Part shown: positions 49,977 to 64,000 of the stretch, piece by piece
Numbering within the stretch: position 1 is the first letter of the stretch
Layout of the letters: the number at the start of each line of letters is the position of its first letter
Assembly (NCBI GenBank): GCA_903915035.1
Contig: CAIWRI010000078.1
Coordinates: 1-64,000, forward strand
DNA: 64,000 nt
DNA from: an uncultured Nitrosomonadales bacterium
GTDB lineage: Bacteria > Pseudomonadota > Gammaproteobacteria > Burkholderiales > Gallionellaceae
Direction of reading: 5' to 3'
Position numbers and translations under genes: made by a program
The notes under the pieces: model-generated
Seen by the model: the letters and a program-made list of their open reading frames with translations, nothing else
The model's database searches: none
Told to the model about the DNA's origin: nothing

Positions 49977-52007
49977 CTATTCCACACCCAGCGCCTTGAA
50001 CACTGCATCCACGGGATCTGAGTAAAAACTGGTCTGGAATTTTGCAAACAGTTCGCCGGGTACGGTTGGAATATCGGTCACGCTCGACATCGGCAGCAAG
50101 ATACGTTTAGCACCGGCATCAAATGCCACCTGCAAACTTTCTGCCAGGCTGCGTGCCTGTGTAATGGTACCGCCCAGACTCATATCGCCCATCACAACCA
50201 TTTGGCTTTGCATCGATTTGCCCAGTGTTGCCGAACACAGTGCAATGAAGTTGGCGAGCGTCAATGTTTCTGGCGCGCCGGAATTTTGCAACTCGACCAA
50301 ATGTAGATGGTAATCATGGTCTCCGGGCTTGATCGCCCCGCTCACCCGTGACGCATGCGCTTTGAAATAGTCGAACGCCACACGCGATGGCTCTCGGGAA
50401 TGATTGCCGGAAATTGACAGCTTGCCATTGCCGGCGATAGACTGAATTTCCAGTCGATACACACCCGGCATACCATTGACACCGATACTGATGGTGTGCA
50501 ATGTCCCCGGGTTGGGTCTGCCGTCCGGAATCAGCGAACCACCGCCCTGTTCCGGAACCGATATAAAGCGTTCCTGCCCGTCTTCCAGATCAATGTAGCT
50601 GAAATGAACATCGTAAAACTCCATACCGCCGATTTTCTTGAGCTGTTCTTTTATCCGGCGACGTGTTTCAAGCGCATATTCCAGCGCACGGCGCACGCTC
50701 TCCTTGTCGTAAATACCATGAGGACAAGTTAATTTGAGCAGACCGGACACGGTACGACGCACCGCAATCGTATCGCGCTGATTCAGGTTATTACCTAGCT
50801 TGAACCACTTGTCGATGGCATCGGCAAAACTGCGCTTACGCATCTCGCGCATCCATTCCGCCAGATAGTCCACGATCATGCCGTACTGGTTAGTGAAAAA
50901 TTCCGGACGCATTTTGGGGATTTCCCAGCCGGGTACATAGGCATGAAACCGGTCAAAGAAGGCCGAATCAATCATCGCAGTCGGGAACGGTTCCAGCAGA
51001 TGACTGGTTTTAACCATCTGTTCAACTGACTGATTGATGTTACCGACGAACACCATGGACGCGCTGGCATTAATTGATTCACGCCCGCGCGAGAATGAGC
51101 CGCTAGCCATGTAGTCCTTCATGATCTGAATGCCGTCTTGTTCCTTAAAGTTGATACCCGCCACTTCATCGAACGCGACCACATCCCATAAGCCGACCAG
51201 ACCGATCTTGCGCGAACCCATGTTGTAGAACAGATTGGCGACCGTGGTTTGCCCGCCGGACACCAGAATACTGTTCGGGCTGATTTCCTTGTAGATATGA
51301 CTTTTACCGGTGCCACGCGGACCTAACTCACACAGATTGTAGTTGTTTTCCACCAGCGGAATCATGCGTGCCAGTAAATGCCATTTCACCCGCTGAGTAA
51401 AACAGGTAGGCTCCATTCCGGTTGAACGGAGCAGTCCGTCTATCCATTGTTCCCCGGTAAAGCCTTTACGTGCTTCGAACAACGCCTCCATATCCATGTT
51501 AGGCATTTGAATCGGCTTCAAATCCGATATCGAAAACGGTGACCCCTTCTGATTCTCCTCGAAATGATAGCGAATCGTCACGATGCACCAGATTCCGCCG
51601 ACCAGCAGCTTCTCAAAATTGCGCACATCCGAATCAGGAATCTCCGCATCCCGTATCGACAGGTTGGATAGCATCGCCTCGTAGGTATCGCGCTTCTCGT
51701 TCAGCTTGACCGTCACCTTGTCGATGACCTTATAGCTGCCACTCTCGCGGATCTTCGACTTTATCTTCTCCGCTTCATCCGGACGAACGTAGTTTTCCGC
51801 CAGCACCCGCTTCACATTGGTCAAACCTGCCTCGATGGTCGCCGGATCATCGGATGCACAATACATGCCGAGTAAATATTCCAGCACATAGACAGGCACA
51901 TTTGCGCCTTCCTTGATAAGCTTGGTCAGATCCTTGCGGACCACCTTGCCGGGTAGAAATTCGTTCAAAAGCGCATCAAGGCTTTTTTCCTGATTCGAAT
52001 CTATCAT
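49977..52007 (-). CDS. brxL: BREX type 1 Lon-like protease BrxL
   Basis: LGPRGTGKSHIYKEISPN; C-terminal Lon-like MSLGGTITQARSLAESLQVAFDAGAKRILLPMSSVTDIPTVP; 676 aa; adjacent to pglZ. Confidence 0.93.
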   Translation of the reverse strand: MIDSNQEKSLDALLNEFLPGKVVRKDLTKLIKEGANVPVYVLEYLLGMYCASDDPATIEAGLTNVKRVLAENYVRPDEAEKIKSKIRESGSYKVIDKVTVKLNEKRDTYEAMLSNLSIRDAEIPDSDVRNFEKLLVGGIWCIVTIRYHFEENQKGSPFSISDLKPIQMPNMDMEALFEARKGFTGEQWIDGLLRSTGMEPTCFTQRVKWHLLARMIPLVENNYNLCELGPRGTGKSHIYKEISPNSILVSGGQTTVANLFYNMGSRKIGLVGLWDVVAFDEVAGINFKEQDGIQIMKDYMASGSFSRGRESINASASMVFVGNINQSVEQMVKTSHLLEPFPTAMIDSAFFDRFHAYVPGWEIPKMRPEFFTNQYGMIVDYLAEWMREMRKRSFADAIDKWFKLGNNLNQRDTIAVRRTVSGLLKLTCPHGIYDKESVRRALEYALETRRRIKEQLKKIGGMEFYDVHFSYIDLEDGQERFISVPEQGGGSLIPDGRPNPGTLHTISIGVNGMPGVYRLEIQSIAGNGKLSISGNHSREPSRVAFDYFKAHASRVSGAIKPGDHDYHLHLVELQNSGAPETLTLANFIALCSATLGKSMQSQMVVMGDMSLGGTITQARSLAESLQVAFDAGAKRILLPMSSVTDIPTVPGELFAKFQTSFYSDPVDAVFKALGVE

Positions 52008-52016
52008 CGTCCGTTC

Positions 52017-54620
52017 CTAAAAATCATTTGAAAACGCCAGATCCACGCGCAGCGGCAGGCGCATCACTTCCACCTTGGTTTGCACATCACGCGCTATCAG
52101 GAAATAATCTTTGTTGCGGTCATAGCTTCCCGATCTCACGGTCAGAATCACGGTGCGTTTACGGCTATCCATCAAATCCGAATCGCTATCAAAGGTCAGC
52201 GATTGCTCGTCACTGATAAATTCCTCGCCATCGCGCAGAGAAATCTGCACCATGCGTGGCAGTATGCGTGCTGAAACAGCCTCATCCTGAATAAACTCGA
52301 ATCGTTGCCGGTTAGTCACCACTTTAATCGACGCACCTAGGATACTGAAGTTTACGAAGCGCGTCTTTGCCTTATCCGATTCACTGGCACGCAAGGTAAT
52401 CACCGGCACAACCACTTCCTGCGGCATCGCACTACCATGCACAAATCGCGCACCACCGGCAAAATGAAAACGTGCAGCCCCCTTGGGCAACCAGAAGTCC
52501 ATACTGCCGTCGCCGGGCTCAGTGCCCGCCGTGACCGATGTGTTTCCACACCAGGCTTTACTGTTCACGCCAATACCTTGACCTATCAAATAGCGTTTTT
52601 TAGCTTTCAATATGCCAGCAGGCTTTTCATCCAGCGTCGATTTATCTGCAACTTCTAGCGCCGACTCCTGATACATAAAGCCGTGATCTGCCGTCAGTAA
52701 AACAACCGAACCATTCAGGCTGTTGATGATGAAAGTAGCCAGCCTTCCCAACTCCTCCAGCGCATCATTAACCGCTGCAAAGGTCTTGGTCTCCGATGCC
52801 TGCTTATCACCGATCATGTCAATCAGGTCGTGGTAGATATACACCAGTTGCTGGTCACGAACGAATTCACGCCCCTTGTCTTTACCCAGTGCCAGCAAAT
52901 CTTCGGCTTTAATCGCCACGCCGCCATATTTCTCAAGATGAGCATTACGTTGTTCGCTGGTCGAAACGATAACGCCATCTGCACTTAAATCGCAATTGCC
53001 ATTCAGTTTATATGCCAGCTTGTTATGAGGCAGCAGCGATGCCATACCCAACGCAGTGTAACTTGGCAGCACGCCGAGCATGGCCGACAAGGAAGCCTTC
53101 AGACGGTTGCGGCTATTGATGATTCGCGTCAACTCTTCGGCGGCCTCGTAACGGAATGCGTCCGAAATCACAACGAACACCCGCTTTGCGCCACCGTCCA
53201 GCACGGGTTTAACATGCTTTACATAGAAGTCAGGCTGATTGATTAGCTCTTCAACTTTCCACTTTCCTAACAGACCATTTTCACCTTCCAGCACTTTGCA
53301 CCATGCGGATGTCAGTTGCGGAATAAACCAGCCGGAATAAGCACTTTCAATCCGTTCAATCAATTCGTGCAGCACAGCCCAGCCCATCGGTTCAACAGCG
53401 GAAGCAGCAAAATTGAACTGACGATACAGTTGGTCAAAACGAAAAAGTTCAGTTTGATACGCCGTCAATCCTTCGGTTGCATTGGCAAAACTGAATCCTG
53501 CCTCATGTGCGGCCTTTAGTTCAAAGAAGCCGTGTGCCGCTTCCAGCGCATCATAGCTCGCAGCCAGTGCGCGGGTAATATCGTTATCCTGAGCCAGCAG
53601 GCGATTAGCCCAATGACCATCGCGGCGGCGCGCCATCAACGAGCGTACTACATTCGATTCAGCGCCCGAGGCGGCGATAATTTGATCCTTGATATGCTTG
53701 ATGATGCGCTGCTCAACCACCGCGAAGGTCATCACATCAGAGAGTGCCGCGCCTGACAGACTACCCAGCATCCCGGCAATATCCAATTCTTTGGCTATCT
53801 GCTCAGACAAGGCGTTATAGCTGGCAAAATGCGCCATATCTGAACGCCACCGGGCAACGAATACCGCTGCATTCGCTGTTTTATTGGGCAAAACGAAATG
53901 AGCGAGTTGACCGGGGCAATTGCCGGACAATGAGCGTGTAAAATCCGTCACCAGCAAGTGAATCAATAAGTCCGGCAATGAAGGCGTGGATTGGACGTAG
54001 CCAAACTCACACTCGATATTTGACCAGAGGGCCAATTCCAGCTCATTACCCTGAATCTCCAACCATGGCCGGGACTCAATATTCAAGTCAGCCATGCCTT
54101 CCACCACCAACCCTGAAAACAAACGAAGCAATATCGCTGTCAGTTCAGGTTGATCCGCACGCGCCAGCACCGCCAGCATCTTGCGGTCGATATCTTCTGC
54201 CGTATCGGTTGGCACGACCAGTCGCTTGAGTTTCTCAACACGATCTTTAGCGCGCAGAAATTTGGCACGCAGCTTCAAATGCGCTCGCAATGTTTGCGAT
54301 GTCAACCCCAAGTCTTCCAGCAGAATGGATGCGGCATCGGCACTGAACGATTTGCTGCGCAGGCGAATGTCCAGCAGCCAATCTTTGGTGAGTTCAGGTT
54401 CCGGCTTATTGCTGTAGAGCAGCCATTTTTGCTTTGGTGCGTGTTCGATATCCAGCTTAACTTTGAGCGCAGGAAGATTATCAGTGCGCACTACCTGTAC
54501 GCCAGGCAATGGAAGGCTATCTACGACAGATGAAAATTCGGCATCGACATCGTGCCAAAACACCACGGCGTTATTAGCATACAGTGCAGAAAGGGAGTCT
54601 ACGATTCGTTGAGTGCTCAA
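52017..54620 (-). CDS. pglZ: BREX phosphatase PglZ
   Basis: RVFVVISDAFRYEAAEELTR and NGSVVLLTADHGFMYQESALEV; 867 aa. Confidence 0.93.
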   Translation of the reverse strand: MSTQRIVDSLSALYANNAVVFWHDVDAEFSSVVDSLPLPGVQVVRTDNLPALKVKLDIEHAPKQKWLLYSNKPEPELTKDWLLDIRLRSKSFSADAASILLEDLGLTSQTLRAHLKLRAKFLRAKDRVEKLKRLVVPTDTAEDIDRKMLAVLARADQPELTAILLRLFSGLVVEGMADLNIESRPWLEIQGNELELALWSNIECEFGYVQSTPSLPDLLIHLLVTDFTRSLSGNCPGQLAHFVLPNKTANAAVFVARWRSDMAHFASYNALSEQIAKELDIAGMLGSLSGAALSDVMTFAVVEQRIIKHIKDQIIAASGAESNVVRSLMARRRDGHWANRLLAQDNDITRALAASYDALEAAHGFFELKAAHEAGFSFANATEGLTAYQTELFRFDQLYRQFNFAASAVEPMGWAVLHELIERIESAYSGWFIPQLTSAWCKVLEGENGLLGKWKVEELINQPDFYVKHVKPVLDGGAKRVFVVISDAFRYEAAEELTRIINSRNRLKASLSAMLGVLPSYTALGMASLLPHNKLAYKLNGNCDLSADGVIVSTSEQRNAHLEKYGGVAIKAEDLLALGKDKGREFVRDQQLVYIYHDLIDMIGDKQASETKTFAAVNDALEELGRLATFIINSLNGSVVLLTADHGFMYQESALEVADKSTLDEKPAGILKAKKRYLIGQGIGVNSKAWCGNTSVTAGTEPGDGSMDFWLPKGAARFHFAGGARFVHGSAMPQEVVVPVITLRASESDKAKTRFVNFSILGASIKVVTNRQRFEFIQDEAVSARILPRMVQISLRDGEEFISDEQSLTFDSDSDLMDSRKRTVILTVRSGSYDRNKDYFLIARDVQTKVEVMRLPLRVDLAFSNDF

Positions 54621-54663: not shown

Positions 54664-54690
54664 ATTTGTGCAAGCAGTGCTTGCACAAAT
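54664..54690. promoter_or_regulatory. Perfect 12-bp inverted repeat with 3-nt loop upstream of pglZ
   Basis: ATTTGTGCAAGC-agt-GCTTGCACAAAT in the only sizeable gap of the pglX-brxL block. Confidence 0.6.
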
Positions 54691-54725: not shown

Positions 54726-55304
54726 TTAAGAGCCAACCAATTTGATAAATTCATCATGAAACAGCTTCACGCTTGGGCAAGCTGGATGTTCAGCAGCACT
54801 GGCAATCGTAAAGCCATAATGTTTGCACATTTTTTTTGCGAATCCCGGCTTGTTACTACCCGGGCCACGTCTTTCTTTCTCTTTAGCTAGTTCCTTCAAT
54901 CGGTCCCAGGGCATCCCGACAGTATCTTCTGGCAAGTCTTCCTGCACATCCGGTAGTTTCAGCCACGATTGCAAAGCTTTACTATCCGCCAGAAACCAAG
55001 CTTCAATGGCCTTCACAGCAACAAAAATGAGATTGGTATGTTCCGTGCCAATGCGTTCCGTCACCACTGCAACACTTGATGCATTTTCAAGGTCAGTCAA
55101 AATCACAATATGATCCGGGCTTGAACGCTTTAGTTGTATTACCATCGGAATAATATTCTGTGGTAAAAGATTACCACCTCCTTTAGCATCAATCACGGGC
55201 GAGCAAATTTCGATGCCTTGGCTTTTGGCCCAGCTTTGAAAAGCGGGAGATTCCACTACAATTTTTTCAGTGTCACCCTCCACGATAAAACCTACTTTTA
55301 CCAT
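54726..55304 (-). CDS. TOPRIM/DUF4276-like protein, partner of the upstream ATPase (cassette 1)
   Basis: VKVGFIVEGDTEKIVVE...HIVILTDLENASS...KAIEAWFLADSKAL. Confidence 0.65.
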   Translation of the reverse strand: MVKVGFIVEGDTEKIVVESPAFQSWAKSQGIEICSPVIDAKGGGNLLPQNIIPMVIQLKRSSPDHIVILTDLENASSVAVVTERIGTEHTNLIFVAVKAIEAWFLADSKALQSWLKLPDVQEDLPEDTVGMPWDRLKELAKEKERRGPGSNKPGFAKKMCKHYGFTIASAAEHPACPSVKLFHDEFIKLVGS

Positions 55305-56410
55305 GGCAAACCACCATCAAAGAAGTTCATCAGCCAAGCAGTATCAAGGTTTAAATTACCAAGATCACCACTATGCTGTGCGGCATTTTTAACCACTGTC
55401 TTACCATCCTCTTTATTGACCAACCAAAGCTCCTCTTTGGTGGAAGCTCGAACCAAAGACTCGCTGTGCGTTGTCACTAATACAGGATGCTCTGAGCTGG
55501 CATTATCCCGCATCAACCGTACAAGTTCCGCAATGGCCTTCGGATGAATACCACGCTCAGGCTCTTCAATCAGCGTCAACCCATATCCCTTGGCACGACT
55601 TAGCACAGCAGCCATGATGCACAGCGCATAGATTGTTCCATCTGAAATCAAATTTGCCGGAAAATGTGCCTTTGTACCCTCCTCCTTAAACTTGATGATT
55701 GTTCTTCCATCCAAGCGTTGCTGTTCTGTGCCAACACTTTCCATTCCGGGAACCAGCAACTCCATCCAATCTATAATTTCAGAACGGATTTCCGTATTTT
55801 TTTCCAATGCAGCCAGGATGGTCGCCACATTATGACCAAACGGACTCAATTCACTACCATCGGTACTTGAAGCATCCGGTTCCTTTGCGCCCAAGGGATC
55901 GAACCTAAATACGCGAATATTGATCAAGTATTGGTAAAGTGCTGACTGGGGTAATAACATCAAGCCTGACATTTCCGAAGGAAAGTTCGGTACTTGGACC
56001 AAGTTTCCATCAACCGCTTGCACCTGAGGAGGCTCTCCTTTCTTTCTAAGTAATACGGGTTTGCCATCAATTAACAACTTTTCCTCAAGCGATGGCATGG
56101 TATCCATCTCATGAACCTTCAAGGTGTAGTCAATACGTTCATCCGTCATGCTCGCAACAATAGAAAACTCAAATGTGCGGGCGTTATTCCCCCGGAGTTT
56201 GTAGCAGTGCAACTGAGGATATCCATTAAACTTACGTATGGCTGCACTTGCTCCAGATTGAATAACTAGACTAACGAAGGCTAGTGAATCCGCTAAATTA
56301 CTTTTTCCAGCCCCATTGGGGCCAGCCAGAACGCTATATGGTGAAAGTTGCGCAAGGGATAAATTGGCGATACTTTTAAAACCGCTGATCTTGATCTGCT
56401 TAATTTTCAT
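55298..56410 (-). CDS. RecF/OLD-like AAA ATPase (cassette 1)
   Basis: IKISGFKSIANL, LAGPNGAGKSNLADSLAFVS, LTLIEEPERGIHPKAI, VLVTTHSESLV. Confidence 0.88.
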   Translation of the reverse strand: MKIKQIKISGFKSIANLSLAQLSPYSVLAGPNGAGKSNLADSLAFVSLVIQSGASAAIRKFNGYPQLHCYKLRGNNARTFEFSIVASMTDERIDYTLKVHEMDTMPSLEEKLLIDGKPVLLRKKGEPPQVQAVDGNLVQVPNFPSEMSGLMLLPQSALYQYLINIRVFRFDPLGAKEPDASSTDGSELSPFGHNVATILAALEKNTEIRSEIIDWMELLVPGMESVGTEQQRLDGRTIIKFKEEGTKAHFPANLISDGTIYALCIMAAVLSRAKGYGLTLIEEPERGIHPKAIAELVRLMRDNASSEHPVLVTTHSESLVRASTKEELWLVNKEDGKTVVKNAAQHSGDLGNLNLDTAWLMNFFDGGLPW

Positions 56411-56565
56411 TCTTCTTCCTTTCCGCCCGTCACCGCTTTTACATCAGATAATAAGTCGCCAAACTTGCCGTAATTTACCTTAACGCCATCGTCCAGATCC
56501 AGTTGGATGCGCATGTCGGCATAGTGACGGAGCTGTTCGTCGAAGTTGGTCTGTGATTGACTCAT
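56407..56565 (-). CDS. Standalone duplicate of the PglX C-terminal tail (tail copy 1)
   Basis: MSQSQTNFDEQLRHYADMRIQLDLDDGVKVNYGKFGDLLSDVKAVTGGKEEE*; ATG overlaps the previous gene stop (ATGA) and its stop overlaps the next ATG (ATGA). Confidence 0.8.
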   Translation of the reverse strand: MSQSQTNFDEQLRHYADMRIQLDLDDGVKVNYGKFGDLLSDVKAVTGGKEEE

Positions 56566-57380
56566 GCCAGCAACCCCATTGCCTGCCATAGAACATTCAG
56601 GTCAGCGGGCACCGTACGTGTTCGCAAAATGGCAAGGCGACGCTCCTTTGCCGGCTTTTGGCCCAGCAGACGATTCAACACCTGATGCACGACCTGCGGA
56701 TAAAAGTCTTTCGCATAAAGCCATTGGGCACAGAGTTTGCTCACGTCTTCAGAAGCCAGCTTTGCTTCCAAAGCATGCACACCATTCAAAACCGCATCGG
56801 CATCCAGTGTTCCATGCCACTCCTTGAATTTGACTCTAAGTGCAGCATCGTCCGGCATGGGCGGACTGCCAAGCACCGCATCAGGGAAACCCATGTTTCG
56901 AAGCTGTCGCCACAGCGGACGAACACCATGCCAAAGCGCTGCATGCCTCACCCAACCCTGCAGATCAGTCAATAACTCAAGACGAAACTGTGCCTCGCCA
57001 CCTGCAATCTTTGCCCGTTGCTTTTCCGGGAAGGCGGCCCACAGTTCCGGCGGATCAATCAGATAACTCTCAAGACAAAAGCGCGGCAAGACCGACAGGT
57101 TAGGACACGCAGCCTGTTTCTCTACAATATCTGCCTCAGTCCATTCATCACGGTCAACCAAGCCCTGCCAATGTGGCTCCTTCATTAACATCTTGACGAC
57201 ATCAGACTTGTTGCCAGCGGCGACCAGAAGCCATGTCTTTTCCCATTCAGGAAACTTGCGCCCCAGGAAAATGCGAAACGCATCGACATCATCGGTTCCC
57301 TCAACCAGAAGGACACGCAGGCCGGCTTTTCCAATGAACTGCGTTTTGATCTGCTTGATGCGCTCCTCCAGCGCACTCAT
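56562..57380 (-). CDS. DUF4435/TOPRIM-like protein, AriB-like (cassette 2)
   Basis: GLRVLLVEGTDDVDAFRIFLGRKF...VLPRFCLESYLIDPPELW. Confidence 0.65.
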   Translation of the reverse strand: MSALEERIKQIKTQFIGKAGLRVLLVEGTDDVDAFRIFLGRKFPEWEKTWLLVAAGNKSDVVKMLMKEPHWQGLVDRDEWTEADIVEKQAACPNLSVLPRFCLESYLIDPPELWAAFPEKQRAKIAGGEAQFRLELLTDLQGWVRHAALWHGVRPLWRQLRNMGFPDAVLGSPPMPDDAALRVKFKEWHGTLDADAVLNGVHALEAKLASEDVSKLCAQWLYAKDFYPQVVHQVLNRLLGQKPAKERRLAILRTRTVPADLNVLWQAMGLLA

Positions 57381-58432
57381 GTGACGCCCCCAAGCTCAAT
57401 ACGCTTACCGGATGCCTCGTAACGCTGCCATATGTCAGGCTGATGGGACGTAATGATAAGTTGCCCGCCAATGTCCGCCACCAACTTTTCAAGACTGGAC
57501 AACAAGCCATTCACCAAGGAAGGGTGCAGATACAAATCCGGCTCGTCAATCAGAATCACCGCACCTTTTTCCGCCCAGCGTGCCAGCAGGTACAACAAGA
57601 TCAACACTTGGTGTTCTCCCGCGCTCAAATCATCCAGTCCATGCGATTGACCACGCTTATTTTTTAACTTCACACTTAAACGGTTTTCACCGGGTTGAAT
57701 GTCCGGGTCTATCTCTTTTCCTGACAAAAAACCATTCAGCAAGCGAACAATCTCGTGGTACTTGTGCAACTGTGTGGTTTTGAGCGTAATGAGGTAGGCT
57801 TCTAACTGATCCTTCCAATCTTCACTCGCCAGGTACTTGGGCAACCAACGCCTGCCTGGTAACTCAGCTGTGTGATCGCCTACATTACGCCGTGCAGCAA
57901 CCCAGCGACGTTCCTCAGCATCCAAAAACACCACGTTAGGCACATCCACCTTATCGAATGACAAGATCATTTTTTTGCGCGCATCGGCCCACTCTTGAAC
58001 CCACGGTTCTGATGGAAGAAAAACTTCCCGTTTTGGGTTGCCCGGCTTACCTGTGCGTGCTACACCTTCACCCAGCCATTGCACATCGGTGTGCTGGGAA
58101 CGCATGGACTCACACCAAGCCAAGTCACCAAAAATCAACCCTATAACTTGACCATCGCTTGGCACTCCACTCAACACCACGGCACATCCACCCCAGCGTT
58201 GCAGCCACTCGCGAGCCACATGACTTTTAGGAAGTGACTTACGCTGATCCAACCAAAAGCCCAATGCGTCCCAAAGCATTGCCACTGCGCGCAATACGGT
58301 GGATTTACCGCAACCATTGGGGCCAGACAGCAAAGCGCGGGCTTCAACACTGTCGTCCCAATCGTTGACGAAGTTGATACAGTTGTCACCAAACGGCCCA
58401 ACATCCTTGAAATACAAAGAGTTAATTTTCAT
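57377..58432 (-). CDS. AAA ATPase, AriA-like (cassette 2)
   Basis: LLSGPNGCGKSTVLRAVAMLWDALG, LDDLSAGEHQVLILLYLLARWAEKGAVILIDEPDLYLHPSL, LIITSHQPDIW. Confidence 0.85.
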   Translation of the reverse strand: MKINSLYFKDVGPFGDNCINFVNDWDDSVEARALLSGPNGCGKSTVLRAVAMLWDALGFWLDQRKSLPKSHVAREWLQRWGGCAVVLSGVPSDGQVIGLIFGDLAWCESMRSQHTDVQWLGEGVARTGKPGNPKREVFLPSEPWVQEWADARKKMILSFDKVDVPNVVFLDAEERRWVAARRNVGDHTAELPGRRWLPKYLASEDWKDQLEAYLITLKTTQLHKYHEIVRLLNGFLSGKEIDPDIQPGENRLSVKLKNKRGQSHGLDDLSAGEHQVLILLYLLARWAEKGAVILIDEPDLYLHPSLVNGLLSSLEKLVADIGGQLIITSHQPDIWQRYEASGKRIELGGVT

Positions 58433-58641
58433 TCTTCTTCCTTTCCGCCCGTCACAGCTTTTACATCAGATAATAAGTCACCAAACTTACCATAATTCAC
58501 CTTCACACCATCATCAAGATCGAGCTGGATGCGCATGTCGGCATAGTGGCGAAGTTTTTCGTCATAGGCTAACAGCTCGACGTGTTTTTTGCGCATTGTC
58601 GCACTATTGAATATGCTGCCTGAAGTAGCCCATTTATTCAT
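58429..58641 (-). CDS. Standalone duplicate of the PglX C-terminal tail (tail copy 2)
   Basis: MNKWATSGSIFNSATMRKKHVELLAYDEKLRHYADMRIQLDLDDGVKVNYGKFGDLLSDVKAVTGGKEEE*; stop overlaps the next ATG. Confidence 0.8.
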   Translation of the reverse strand: MNKWATSGSIFNSATMRKKHVELLAYDEKLRHYADMRIQLDLDDGVKVNYGKFGDLLSDVKAVTGGKEEE

Positions 58642-58649
58642 GGCATGGA

Positions 58650-59390
58650 TCAATGAATGACTTCACTTAATGCACGCTCCAACTCCAGTTTAAATGCCTT
58701 GAAACTTGGCATAAACGAGGCTCTCGCTTCATCTATCGGGTTCTCGTCCAACCACTCACAGAGTTCATTGGCGGATTTATGTGCGCCGAATGCCGCATCA
58801 AGTTTCTTCTTGGGATGATTGGCAGACTCTACGTTGCCCGGTAACTCTTCGAGTTTGCGGCAATTTTGATAAGGTTTATTTTGTGCGGCACACAATAACC
58901 AAGCTTCCGAAGTCGGCTTTGGTAGCATTGGTACACCTCTGGAAAATTCAGCCCTGTTAAATCCATTCACCATAGCGTCCCACTTCGTCTCCCAAATTCC
59001 AGACATGGTAGATCGCGTTCCATCGCAGTCACGAAACAGCACGGCAAGAACCTGATCTTCACGTTCAGATTCAATTTGCAAGGCAATATCCGCAAGCATC
59101 CATGCGTTGATGTAAAAATATCCAGTTTCTTGAGCTCGTTTTTTACCAACGAAGGAAAAACTTCGATGCTCTTTCTTGCGTGCTTCCTCTCGCTCTTCTA
59201 ATGCGGCCTTACCAACATATTGATATCCACCCGGTATAGAACACAACGAGTAATCCAAACGAGATTCAAGCATCTGATCCAAGAGCACAGTCATAGGGCC
59301 AATCTGCAAGTCTCCATCCGAACAATTGCCCTGAGCATTATTACATTGCCCCAAATCGGTTGGGCCTTCCCCACTCAACACGACAATCAT
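58650..59390 (-). CDS. DUF4276/TOPRIM-like protein (cassette 3)
   Basis: MIVVLSGEGPTDLGQ...VLAVLFRDCDGTRS...PKPTSEAWLLCAAQ. Confidence 0.6.
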   Translation of the reverse strand: MIVVLSGEGPTDLGQCNNAQGNCSDGDLQIGPMTVLLDQMLESRLDYSLCSIPGGYQYVGKAALEEREEARKKEHRSFSFVGKKRAQETGYFYINAWMLADIALQIESEREDQVLAVLFRDCDGTRSTMSGIWETKWDAMVNGFNRAEFSRGVPMLPKPTSEAWLLCAAQNKPYQNCRKLEELPGNVESANHPKKKLDAAFGAHKSANELCEWLDENPIDEARASFMPSFKAFKLELERALSEVIH

Positions 59391-60559
59391 TCCTTGGCCT
59401 CTGCCTCGGCACGTTGCCTTTCGGCGAAATCATCCGCGTCATCCAGCGCGATACATTCCTCGGTAAGCTGTACCAGGTCGGTATCAACAAATGCCTCACC
59501 TGCGCCCATAAATTTGAGCTTCTTCCCAATGTTCGGAATCTCAAAGAACCGGCGTATGCGGCTTAAGCCAGCGGTATTCTTATAGACGTACTGTACAGAC
59601 TTCCGCGCTTCATCATCTTCCAAATAATTCAAAATCATCGGACTATGTGTCGTCACAATAATTTGCTGTTGAGCATTCACTAATATATCAACCAACTTTT
59701 CGATTATTTCAGGATTGATGCCATTCTCGATCTCGTCCAGCAAAACTAGCGGATGATCAGATTCTGCCTGAGCCAAAATCGCTAATATTCGCAACACCCC
59801 ATCGCTCAAGTGCGTTGCTTCCGTTTCCAGAGTTTGTTCTCCGAACTGTTCAACCACCATGAGTTTTTTCCAACCAGCCCGCATACTTGCAACCCTGAAG
59901 TCAATCAGATTTGGGTAAAACAACTTTAATAACACCAGTAAGTGAGCTTTCGCATCTCCTTTTATGTTATGTAGGAAACCAGAAAGTTTTTCCCCACCCG
60001 CACCGATGTCCTTATCATCTGTTCTTGCACGCTTGCGCAGCAAATGCGGAGAAAGTAACTCCAACGAACGGGTACGTCTGAGTACATCACGAAATTCCAG
60101 AATTGATGGCGGAAGCTCACTATCCTTGAGTTGAGAAATAATTGAGCCTTGAAAAATAAATGAAATTGGCTGTTTTCGTCCTTCAGTGTGGTACTCGTGC
60201 CCACGGGAAGTAAAAATAAGTTCATTATCTAATTGGACTCTTTCCCACGAACAGCGCAAGTCAGAGCGGTTAAAGCCAGCATGCCAATTCAGAAGTTGTC
60301 CCGCCTGAGTACGATATTGGACTCGTATGAGTATATTGCTTGCCTTGAAAAGTTTGCAGTTCAAATCCTGTGCTGTCCAGCCACGGGAATCCAGCCAACT
60401 CAATACATTGCCAGTCATTAACTGAGAAATGAAATCGATCCCTTGGAGTATCGTGCTTTTACCCACCCCATTCATCCCGATAAAACAATTGAATTTACTG
60501 AGTGGAAAAGCCAGATTTCCAGCAGACTTAAAATTGGTTATGAATATATTTTCAATCAT
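59387..60559 (-). CDS. RecF/OLD-like AAA ATPase (cassette 3)
   Basis: IFITNFKSAGNLAFPL, CFIGMNGVGKSTILQGID, PLVLLDEIENGINPEII, IIVTTHSPMILNYL. Confidence 0.87.
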   Translation of the reverse strand: MIENIFITNFKSAGNLAFPLSKFNCFIGMNGVGKSTILQGIDFISQLMTGNVLSWLDSRGWTAQDLNCKLFKASNILIRVQYRTQAGQLLNWHAGFNRSDLRCSWERVQLDNELIFTSRGHEYHTEGRKQPISFIFQGSIISQLKDSELPPSILEFRDVLRRTRSLELLSPHLLRKRARTDDKDIGAGGEKLSGFLHNIKGDAKAHLLVLLKLFYPNLIDFRVASMRAGWKKLMVVEQFGEQTLETEATHLSDGVLRILAILAQAESDHPLVLLDEIENGINPEIIEKLVDILVNAQQQIIVTTHSPMILNYLEDDEARKSVQYVYKNTAGLSRIRRFFEIPNIGKKLKFMGAGEAFVDTDLVQLTEECIALDDADDFAERQRAEAEAKE

Positions 60560-63500
60560 CAGAACTACCTCCAGTCACTGCTTTTACATCAGATAATAAG
60601 TCGCCAAACTTGCCGTAGTTCACCTTCACGCCATCGTCCAGATCCAGTTGGATGCGCATGTCGGCATAGTGGCGGAGTTTTTCGTCGTAGGCTAACAGCT
60701 CAACATGTTTCTTGCGCAGCACTTCGATTTGTTTGTTGATCTTGTTACGGGCAGCGGTCACAGTGGCGGCGTCACGATCCTTGGTCAGCATCTCGATACG
60801 TGACTGGATTTTACTGGTCAGCGGCACGACATATTCGGCGCGCATCCGCGCAAGGGTGCCTTCGTGATAACGATGCAGATAGACCAGTGCCTGAAACGCT
60901 CCTTGCTTACCGCTGGAGAACAGCCAGTAGATCGGGCGTTTCTTGTACATTTGCAGGTGATTCTTGTAAAAGCTGGTCGCGAGATAACGGCGGATAGTTT
61001 CTTCCAATGTTTCGTTGCCCTTCATACCCAGACTTTCCGCCAACCACTGTAGATTAGTGGCAAGTAGTGAGTGGTTAGTGGTCAGTGGCGAGTGGTCAGA
61101 AAGACAGTGGTCAGTGGTCAGTGGCGAGTGGCCAGAAAGACAGTGGTCACTAATCACTGTTTCTCCACTAGTCACTGAACACTGGTCACTAATCACTGCT
61201 TCTCCACTGGTCACTGAACACTGGTCACTAATCACTGTTTCTCCACTGTTCACTGTTTCTCCACTGTTCACTGTTTCTCCACTAATCACTGTTTCTCCAC
61301 TGTCCACTGCCTTGTCTCCCCATACGGCCAGCAGGAATTCGCTGATACGATTAGCGGCATCATCCTCAAACCAGAACTCGTCGGTAAGCGGCACGATACC
61401 ATCGGCGTCGGCGGGGAACAGATTTTGTAGGGGCGAATTCATTCGCCCTTGGGCGGATAAATCCGCCCCTACCCCATTGTAGATTTCCCAGAACCGTTCA
61501 TTTCCCGAATGCGCGTAAATCAACCCCGGCCTATCCAGTCGATACCGCCCCATCATGCAACCGATAGCATAGGAGATCAGGCGCTGGCAATCTTTCTCGC
61601 GGTCGGCACGAGCGAGGGTGATCTGTTCTTCGGGAACTTCGGGGGACAGTTCGTCTTGCAGACCGTAGGCTTCGATGAAAATGCGGTTGTTTTGTTCTTC
61701 CAATGTTTTCGTTATGCTAATATTGTCATTTAACACTAATAGCCAACTATTCCACGTCGCCTCAATACTTTTGCATTTTATGGGGGTTGCCACCAAAGGG
61801 TTATAAATATAATCCCATGAAGTTTCTACCCAATCCCAGTCTTGTTTCGCTAAATCAACAATTGTTGAAGTATTGGATTCAATTTCTTCAAAATAGGGTT
61901 CCAGTAAAGTTAGATTAAATGGCAATGCTGCGATATTACCTGGCTGAAAATTTAAAGTAGGGTTTATAGAACACAAAAATTCAAACGTCGGTTTTGCAGA
62001 CAAAAATGCCAAAACGAGATTGTGAAATTTTTCATCAGGAAATGCTGATGAGCCACCATTATCAAACAAAAAACCTTTTTCGCACTTTCGAGCACTAAAG
62101 AATGCTGAAGTAACTGCTGACCAAGTTACTGACGGCTTGAAATACTTGTCCCTATTAATTATTCGTCCGGTAGAGTTAACCTTCGAGCCGGACACTAAAT
62201 CTATATAGTCACATATTGTTTTTCCATTATTTTCATAATTAATGACATACATATTGTTGCCATACCATTTTTTAAAACCACCACCTTTATTGTATGGAAA
62301 AAACTTCTTATTACTTGCAAGTGCTTCCGGTGCAGTCCCATAACCAAATCCTATTTTCTGGATAGAAACCTCAGACCAATTTCGAACAAATAATTCATTC
62401 TTTGTTGTGTTCATCCCCGCACAAGGTCGAGTGAAGGCACCTAAAGAAGAGCTTTTTTCAAATATGTCACGAACCGCATGCCCTAACCAATATGCCACAG
62501 GACTTCCCGGAATTTTTTTAAAATCATCCGGCTTCACTATTTTGAGACGATTATTTTGAACGGGAAATTTTAAAGGAACCCCCTCTTCGTTTACATCATC
62601 ATTTTTACAGTATGAAAAGCTACCCTCATAAGCATCAATGTGCTTATTCCAAAATATGGTAGCAGCGGTACCAAATGCAATGCCCATTACCCCATTGCCC
62701 ATATGTACCATACAATAGAGCGTTTTTTTACCTAGTAAATTATTCCGCATCACTTCAAACGACGACAAGAACATCCAGCTCTGCATCGTTACCATGCTAT
62801 TCAAACCTGTTGCTTTGCACCAACCAAAGCCACGTTCGATAAACATAGCAAACAAATCAGCCTTACTATTTGGAAATCGCTCCCCTGAAAAACTCTTTAA
62901 CTCAGGGTTCATCCCCTTACCGCCCATATACGGCGGATTCGCTACAACAGCATCAAACTGCATTCCCAGAACTTTCGCCTGCCCAACCAGCGGCAACAAC
63001 TGTTGTACTGCCGACTCGGAGAGCAGATCGCCGTTCTTGATAGCCAGCTGCAAGCTCTCCGCCATCGTCGCCAGTTTTACATTCAACGCCTGCGGGATTT
63101 GTATCAACGAGCCGAAGGTCTTTGCATGAGTGAAGGTATCGATCAGCATGCGTACGGCTTGAGCTTCCTCAGACACGGCACGGACGGAGCTGTTTGATTT
63201 CAATGCTGGTGACTCGTCAAAGCTCATTTGCGGACGACTGCCGGGAAAGAGATCGTCATCCCCGAAGCCACTCGTTAACGCCTTTGCGGACAAGGGAAAT
63301 AAAGCCTGAACGATTGCATCCACATCCAGCCCACGACTCTCCTGCAAAGCCAGCACATTGAGAGTTGGCGGATTATCGAGCAGACGGCGATCATCGGCAC
63401 GAGCCTTCATCAGCAATGCAAATCCAGCCAGTTGCGCGGCGCGATCATCGATATCCAGACCGAAAAGATTCTTTTCCAGAATCAGACGGGGAATGTCGCG

Positions 63501-64000
63501 TAAACGATAGCCGCGTTCCAGATAGATACCCTTCAGTACCTCATATCCTTCAACCAAAATGTGACCGGAGCCGCAGGCAGGATCGAGCATCGTGATAGTT
63601 TCAGGATTCAGACTGCCGCCATCTTCACCCATGCGAGTCTGAATAAGCGCATCCAACTGAGCCTGAACTTCCGGCGTTTGCTCGGCAGGTTCTATGTAAT
63701 AAGCCCATTCACTCTTCAGCGTTGAAGCAGGATTCGCCATCAACCACAGGCGACCGACGCTGTTTTGCACAAGATATTTAACAATCCAGTTAGGGGTAAA
63801 TAGCTGGGTGGCGGCGGGAATATCCTCGCTCTTAACCACTTTGCCGATCACTTCATCCTTCTTCTCACTGATGTAAAACTGGTACAGCCAACCGATAATC
63901 TCGACTTCCTGCCAGTCTTCTTCGGGAATAGCAGCTACCAGCTTGGCGATGACTGAATCAGTGCGCAACAGATTGTCCGGCAACAGCAACTCGGTTTCAT
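60552..64000 (-). CDS. pglX: BREX adenine-specific DNA methyltransferase PglX (5' part beyond the window)
   Basis: LDPACGSGHILVEGYEVL and VVANPPYMGGKGMN; frame remains open to the window edge past the ORF-track TTG. Confidence 0.93.
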   Translation of the reverse strand, partial: ETELLLPDNLLRTDSVIAKLVAAIPEEDWQEVEIIGWLYQFYISEKKDEVIGKVVKSEDIPAATQLFTPNWIVKYLVQNSVGRLWLMANPASTLKSEWAYYIEPAEQTPEVQAQLDALIQTRMGEDGGSLNPETITMLDPACGSGHILVEGYEVLKGIYLERGYRLRDIPRLILEKNLFGLDIDDRAAQLAGFALLMKARADDRRLLDNPPTLNVLALQESRGLDVDAIVQALFPLSAKALTSGFGDDDLFPGSRPQMSFDESPALKSNSSVRAVSEEAQAVRMLIDTFTHAKTFGSLIQIPQALNVKLATMAESLQLAIKNGDLLSESAVQQLLPLVGQAKVLGMQFDAVVANPPYMGGKGMNPELKSFSGERFPNSKADLFAMFIERGFGWCKATGLNSMVTMQSWMFLSSFEVMRNNLLGKKTLYCMVHMGNGVMGIAFGTAATIFWNKHIDAYEGSFSYCKNDDVNEEGVPLKFPVQNNRLKIVKPDDFKKIPGSPVAYWLGHAVRDIFEKSSSLGAFTRPCAGMNTTKNELFVRNWSEVSIQKIGFGYGTAPEALASNKKFFPYNKGGGFKKWYGNNMYVINYENNGKTICDYIDLVSGSKVNSTGRIINRDKYFKPSVTWSAVTSAFFSARKCEKGFLFDNGGSSAFPDEKFHNLVLAFLSAKPTFEFLCSINPTLNFQPGNIAALPFNLTLLEPYFEEIESNTSTIVDLAKQDWDWVETSWDYIYNPLVATPIKCKSIEATWNSWLLVLNDNISITKTLEEQNNRIFIEAYGLQDELSPEVPEEQITLARADREKDCQRLISYAIGCMMGRYRLDRPGLIYAHSGNERFWEIYNGVGADLSAQGRMNSPLQNLFPADADGIVPLTDEFWFEDDAANRISEFLLAVWGDKAVDSGETVISGETVNSGETVNSGETVISDQCSVTSGEAVISDQCSVTSGETVISDHCLSGHSPLTTDHCLSDHSPLTTNHSLLATNLQWLAESLGMKGNETLEETIRRYLATSFYKNHLQMYKKRPIYWLFSSGKQGAFQALVYLHRYHEGTLARMRAEYVVPLTSKIQSRIEMLTKDRDAATVTAARNKINKQIEVLRKKHVELLAYDEKLRHYADMRIQLDLDDGVKVNYGKFGDLLSDVKAVTGGSSDD
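61053..61311. repeat. In-frame variable short repeat block (18-, 36- and 39-nt units) inside pglX
   Basis: AGTGGTCAGTGGCGAGTGGTCAGAAAGAC... and CACTAATCACTG(T/C)TTCTCCACT... units; encodes GETVNS, DHCLSxHSPLTT, SDQCSVTSGEAVI repeats. Confidence 0.9.
61427..61472. repeat. 46-bp double-hairpin palindromic repeat inserted in-frame in pglX
   Basis: GTAGGGGCGAATTCATTCGCCCTTGGGCGGATAAATCCGCCCCTAC; encodes GVGADLSAQGRMNSPL. Confidence 0.85.

Follow-up and report, generated by a model that had tools for sequence, protein, structure and literature searches.

BREX locus and its short pglX-like frames

The DNA analysed here, a 64,000-nt stretch of contig CAIWRI010000078.1 from an uncultured Nitrosomonadales bacterium (the window), carries on its minus strand the end of a type I bacteriophage exclusion (BREX) locus. 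The genes run in the order pglX, M25AB, tail copy 2, AriA/B-like, tail copy 1, HEC-01AB and pglZ, followed by brxL (coordinates in Table 1). The two tail copies are micro-ORFs (short open reading frames) that resemble the 3' end of pglX, and their origin is the subject of this analysis. HEC-01 and PDC-M25 are PADLOC candidate systems; each has its A and B components paired, with full-length profile matches. Residues 229-339 of the AriA-like ATPase match AriA in the PDB (E 4e-9). The PADLOC match of its partner to AriB (E 6e-12) spans residues 22-120 only, and the partner has no Pfam, NCBIfam or meaningful PDB match. An earlier reading of this sequence (the original prediction) had called the partner DUF4435, a name that no Pfam match upholds.

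Both tail copies retain a start codon and an intact frame, as the original prediction had stated. Tail copy 1 encodes 52 amino acids (aa), and tail copy 2 encodes 70 aa from ATG 58641 or 74 aa from TTG 58653, the latter forming a TTGA overlap with the upstream stop. The ATGA overlaps described earlier, at both ends of tail copy 1 and at the 3' end of tail copy 2, agree with the sequence. Tail copy 1 begins with an ATG at 56565 that shares bases with the stop codon of the preceding gene (GC-ATGA-GT), and its TGA, ending at 56407, shares a 4-nt ATGA with the start of HEC-01A, which encodes a 370-aa ATPase. At 58429-58432, tail copy 2 shares an ATGA with the start of the AriA-like gene (351-aa ATPase), and its last codons, GGAAAGGAAGAAGA-ATGA, lie within the initiation region of that gene.

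PglX homology spans 41 residues in tail copy 1 and 54 in tail copy 2, and a 37-residue core, LRHYADMRIQLDLDDGVKVNYGKFGDLLSDVKAVTGG, is identical in pglX and both tails. The 111 nt encoding this core differ at 14 positions between pglX and tail copy 2, at 8 between pglX and tail copy 1, and at 13 between the two tails; all differences are synonymous. The NCBIfam model for the PglX C-terminal end (NF033452) matches tail copy 2 at model positions 1168-1210 (E 6e-15) and tail copy 1 at 1178-1210 (E 1e-11), and the PADLOC PglX profile also matches. Chance similarity was excluded by genome-wide searches (E 1e-23 to 3e-32). The methyltransferase and target-recognition domains are absent from the tails; because only the last 41-54 residues of PglX are present, the tails are fragments and not PglX proteins. 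The intact tail closest to tail copy 1 is that of the window's own pglX (11 of 123 nt different), and those closest to tail copy 2 belong to locus L107 and to the window's pglX (15 nt different each).

Probable stranded ends of pglX in related loci

For comparison, 80 loci encoding a relative of the tail were retrieved (L numbers denote individual loci). The set is made up of the loci closest to the query, many of them contigs of metagenome-assembled genomes (MAGs), so the frequency of standalone tails among them is no population estimate. In many of the 80, the gene behind full-length pglX overlaps or almost touches the pglX stop, and the type of overlap tracks the module. For PDC-M25A the overlap is 8 nt (GATGATTGA), both after pglX (the window, L016, L021, L034 and L075) and after the standalone tails present in L018 and L031. 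A 4-nt overlap is seen for the AriA-like gene behind full-length pglX in L015, as it does behind tail copy 2, and also behind the 3' part of pglX present in L040. HEC-01A likewise has a 4-nt overlap behind full-length pglX in L018, as behind tail copy 1. Exceptions are AriA-like and HEC-01A genes that have other spacings or lie farther downstream (L047, L054, L057, L059, L032 and L041). The coupling-type overlaps noted in the original prediction are real but not peculiar to the tails, since a stop/start overlap joins pglX itself to its next gene in the window and in many BREX loci. Every module of the window occurs elsewhere directly behind pglX with the same overlap, which argues that the tails are stranded 3' ends of pglX. 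Read in this way, the overlaps of the tails are inherited from a pglX that formerly stood at that place. The first codons of tail copy 1 (MSQSQTN) are only suggestive of a relic of the pglZ 5' end, as the start is placed where pglZ starts in L040; this likeness was not used as support.

Each locus was also searched with its own proteins (56 loci with a complete pglX and 57 with a complete pglZ). Extra pieces of pglX came from the last ~5% of the gene in the window (twice), L018, L025, L037, L073 and L090, and from the first ~10% in L018, L023, L053 and L073. The sole exception to this bias toward gene ends is L050, which has a large second pglX in tandem. In L050 (5-5007) the two genes are joined stop to start and are 62% identical over the available part of the first. 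The 5' pieces lie upstream of the full pglX (L018 4864-4980; L023 5173-5328; L053 5375-5451; L073 2491-2892) and mirror the 3' fragments. Extra pieces of pglZ came from its first ~10% in L024, L025, L057 and L083, with a weak internal match in L033; the matches in L057 resemble dispersed repeats. L025 contains a micro-ORF, MSEQGITDALGTAFSSNSIVFW-LKADGKFGALLAKAKALTGGASDD*, that leads from the pglZ start to the pglX stop and consists of about 22 pglZ and about 20 pglX codons joined at a short similarity. By its sequence, this micro-ORF is a recombination joint and not an evolved adaptor.

Truncated pglX 3' ends lie between successive modules in the window, L018, L025, L026, L037, L073, L090 and L170-L173; in L026 the extra tail copy stands behind a partial pglX. 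Such fragments were almost never found in plasmids (229 tail places in 228 plasmid records) or in Escherichia coli (396 tail places in 395 records). The order around Acidovorax yielded no short-frame tail copies, and the order around Halomonas yielded one genome with two full-size frames. Fragments of the pglX tail encoding 21 aa were also seen in two congeneric genomes (L008 and L011, 1510-1572), and one of these fragments directly precedes an M25A homologue.

The interval between pglX and pglZ is highly variable among close relatives. In three congeners (L183-L185), pglZ is 70-91% and brxL 83-97% identical to the window genes, and the pglX-pglZ interval contains a quite different set of genes. 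L183 encodes M25A and M25B that are 84% and 93% identical to those of the window without any tail, indicating that the module does not need the tail. Passages of a published account state that, of 9,000 genomes having both pglX and pglZ, about 7,000 have genes between the two (PMC11341690).

Several tails outside the window are decayed, and many would be unable to function as peptides. The third relic of L018, before its AriA-like gene, contains an in-frame TAA, and the tail of L090 contains a frameshift and a stop. No ATG, GTG or TTG precedes the tail in L026 and L031. Of the standalone tails outside the window, 5 of 5 carry changes at columns conserved to 95% or more in intact tails, compared with 12 of 87 among the intact tails themselves (Fisher P about 1e-4); part of the count for L073 falls outside the homology region, with two hits remaining inside. 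The frame, start and conserved residues are kept in the window copies but not in the L018 relic, L026, L031, L073, L090, L174 and L175. In L174 (4738-6790) and L175 (4944-6957), a decayed tail precedes M25AB beside genes of the resistance-nodulation-division (RND)/OprM type. The retrieved stretches of these two loci contain no BREX, and no full-length pglX of this family was found in their genomes.

The genes accompanying the tails also differ. In the four genomes of L170-L173, a DUF2281-PIN toxin-antitoxin pair directly follows a divergent pglX and is itself followed by a pglX tail copy. Standalone tails stand behind a gene for a Schlafen-AlbA protein in L026 and behind TOTE-type genes in L090. 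The tails are not specific to ATPase-TOPRIM modules, because they also follow toxin-antitoxin, Schlafen-type and TOTE-type genes, and the idea that they are a property of such modules was rejected.

A stack of defence modules and its probable junction scars

Taken together, it is likely, with a probability of roughly 0.83, that the standalone tails are junction scars, i.e., stranded 3' ends of pglX within a stack of defence modules. The DNA itself displays the anatomy of the locus, the recurrence of module-specific overlaps, fragments biased toward gene ends, one chimeric joint, the decay of scars in other loci and a slot that is hypervariable among congeners. From these features we infer the sequence of events, that the right end was joined illegitimately, and that translation is coupled. 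In type I BREX the pglX-pglZ gap is an insertion slot in which the first gene of a module starts inside the last codons of pglX. Since the module's first gene starts there, the 3' end of pglX would supply the module's ribosome-binding site and start codon. Incoming DNA consisting of pglX plus a module would pair at its left end with the resident pglX, and its right end would join the 3' end of the old pglX, probably illegitimately at a short homology. Alternatively, the right end may join by way of a pglZ 5' fragment, as in L025. The old pglX would be reduced to its tail, which remains attached to the module that it formerly drove, and each round would shift the older module one place toward pglZ with a tail in front. 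Two such rounds would yield the order pglX, M25AB, tail, AriA/B-like, tail, HEC-01AB, pglZ seen in the window. It is probably at the level of DNA and RNA that the tails matter, both as the initiation region of the next module and as direct repeats, and the tail peptide itself is probably incidental.

A similar arrangement is known from the orphan immunity-gene arrays of the type VI secretion system (T6SS) in Vibrio cholerae (PMC5361080) and from the orphan 3' regions of Rhs/contact-dependent inhibition (CDI) loci. In those arrays, as here, a conserved core gene anchors successive downstream modules, and a displaced gene can leave its 3' end between modules. The scheme outlined above for BREX is the one put forward for the T6SS immunity-gene arrays as homology-facilitated illegitimate recombination (PMC5361080). 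Two hallmarks of such arrays are present in BREX: 3' ends of the core gene lie between modules, and the same modules (M25A, HEC-01A and AriA-like) lie directly behind the core gene elsewhere. Unlike in the T6SS and Rhs arrays, the leftover is the conserved 3' end of a methyltransferase gene that carries the start signals of the next module, and the older modules stay complete rather than being reduced to immunity genes.

Accessory genes in the pglX-pglZ interval have been described, including the phage anti-restriction-induced system (PARIS) in Salmonella StySA/BREXSty and BrxU in pEFER (passages of PMC11341690 and PMC9009780). Salmonella PARIS, as portrayed there, occupies the same slot as here, with an AriA/AriB-type module between pglX and pglZ. 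These passages describe one insert and no pglX 3' relics, whereas the window has three stacked modules with a relic before the second and the third. Modules of an OLD-ABC ATPase plus a nuclease have been presented as 'backup effectors' of BREX, and keyword-matched passages of that survey place ATPase-TOPRIM dyads within BREX loci, as here, with no mention of pglX tail copies or of how modules are joined (PMC12839542). A truncated pglX is also described in PMC9716671, but it is a split gene and not a tail relic. No description of pglX 3' relics was found in the PubMed Central (PMC) literature, a coverage that excludes most subscription journals.

Several observations weigh against stranded junction scars. 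The window tails show no decay, all differences from pglX in their 37-codon core being synonymous. Such intact tails also fit constraint on the peptide, gene conversion, recent capture, or divergence in a full-length donor pglX before capture, and a dN/dS comparison (nonsynonymous versus synonymous change) did not separate constraint from pre-capture divergence. Between the orthologous scars of L170 and L172, 8 codons differ synonymously and 4 nonsynonymously, so that these scars, too, do not appear plainly neutral. Five scars (both window tails, L018, L025 and L037) start at an in-frame stop/start overlap, and their starts are more orderly than random joining requires. Neither an empty site nor a strain pair capturing an insertion was found. 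For the joining of the right end there is one readable joint, that of L025, and no before/after strain pair. Misassembly of MAGs can mimic stacking, possibly also in the window contig.

Alternative roles of the tails

The alternatives overlap deliberately with this explanation, as a translational device and a homology arm would be partial roles of junction scars. The first alternative is that a tail is kept solely as a translational device whose last codons provide the next ATPase gene with its ribosome-binding site and start region and whose frame passes ribosomes on. The final codons of every tail do fall in the translation initiation region of the following gene, and a Shine-Dalgarno (SD)-like sequence lies within them (duplex of -10.8 kcal/mol at the L018 scar and -5.8 kcal/mol at both window tails). 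The broken relic of L018 retains its SD-like AAGGA and ATG despite the lost frame. Since the last codons of a tail hold the SD-like sequence and start of the next gene, this role would explain why the 3' end survives even in broken relics. However, it accounts for the last ~25 nt and not for the 120-160 nt of tail, and the SD strength of the window tails is unexceptional compared with shuffled sequences (fraction 0.21-0.23). As the sole reason for the tails it is doubtful, though possible. Simple loading of ribosomes for the next ORF was the nearest of the options in the original prediction.

It is also conceivable, but unlikely, that the tails were selected as homology arms of a cassette system, in which near-identical coding connectors recombine and modules are thereby swapped or dropped. 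The tail copies form direct repeats spaced 2.0-2.1 kb apart; they are 123-150 nt long, share 86-92% identity and contain perfect runs of 23-44 nt. As such they could promote the loss or exchange of a module, with the PglX C-terminus left intact. The order of modules differs between the window and L018, in keeping with this idea, as does the variability of the slot in congeners. However, no strain pair was found in which a module had been precisely lost or exchanged between tails, and scars occur in a minority of loci only.

The headline of the original prediction, that the free tails are functional microproteins that act as adaptor or docking peptides tying ATPase-nuclease pairs to BREX or compete with PglX, is very improbable. 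The open frames and identical cores of the window tails are what it would lead one to expect, and the C-terminal region of PglX is described as highly conserved and as a proposed binding surface in passages of PMC11341690. Against it, the overlaps are inherited from pglX, scars elsewhere are broken, startless or altered at near-invariant residues, and scars occur behind non-ATPase inserts and outside BREX. The tail-free M25AB of the congener argues likewise, and the predicted structure of the isolated tail is of low confidence (predicted local distance difference test, pLDDT, 69; predicted template modelling score, pTM, 0.30), giving no confident fold. As a general reading, a docking microprotein was rejected on decay, absent start codons, unrelated inserts and the tail-free module. 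A constrained or functional tail peptide in this one strain is still compatible with the sequences.

Also very improbable is that the window tails are translated and selected as decoys or sensors. In this view a free tail might be a target for DNA mimics of the Ocr type, or might monitor PglX, beside a PARIS-like module that responds to inhibitors of this kind. Of the six residues of Salmonella PglX in salt bridges with Ocr, the T7 anti-restriction protein, two (K1201 and D1213) align within the tail and are kept in both window tails, which leaves some room for such a role.

As junction scars, the tails show how accessory defence systems can become packed inside BREX. Because the 3' end of pglX also acts as a start signal for the following module, the modules are plug-compatible. 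The scars reveal which module once adjoined pglX directly and give the order of acquisition, and short pieces of the pglX 3' or pglZ 5' end provide a sequence signature for module borders. For annotation, caution is warranted, as short PglX matches may be scars and not genes.

Table 1. Features at the end of the BREX locus in the window
Feature	Position	Strand	Remarks
pglX, BREX-1 methyltransferase	60552..64000	-	extends past window edge; 1323 aa in contig
pglX 3' end, parent-type tail	60555-60719	-	ends SSDD; stop overlaps next start by 8 nt
PDC-M25A ATPase, module I	59387..60559	-	PADLOC PDC-M25A E 7e-159
PDC-M25B, module I partner	58650..59390	-	PADLOC PDC-M25B E 6e-98
Tail copy 2 micro-ORF	58429..58653	-	pglX homology 58432-58596; 74 aa from TTG 58653, 70 aa from ATG 58641
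AriA-like ATPase (PARIS-like), module II	57377..58432	-	PADLOC AriAB E 6e-27; 351 aa
AriB/DUF4435-like partner, module II	56562..57380	-	PADLOC AriB E 6e-12, partial
Tail copy 1 micro-ORF	56407..56565	-	52 aa; pglX homology about 56410-56544
HEC-01A ATPase, module III	55298..56410	-	PADLOC HEC-01A E 4e-161; 370 aa
HEC-01B (DUF4276), module III partner	54726..55304	-	PADLOC HEC-01B E 7e-85
pglZ, distal border of insertion slot	52017..54620	-	Pfam PglZ E 5e-63
brxL	49977..52007	-	Pfam BrxL_ATPase E 2e-145

A perfect palindrome, TTTGTGCAAGCA-C-TGCTTGCACAAA, lies at 54665-54689 between HEC-01B and pglZ and may be a terminator or an element marking the slot border; similar palindromes stand behind M25B in L031 and L053. 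The window pglX contains an in-frame repetitive stretch at about 61015-61280 (SGETVISGETVNSGETVN...SDHSPLTTN), which accounts for the length of its product, 1323 aa compared with about 1200 in most relatives. The genome of the window also has a second BREX-like locus (G000:C134 35210-42779, L095), which encodes a BrxL of its own along with a divergent PglX tail.

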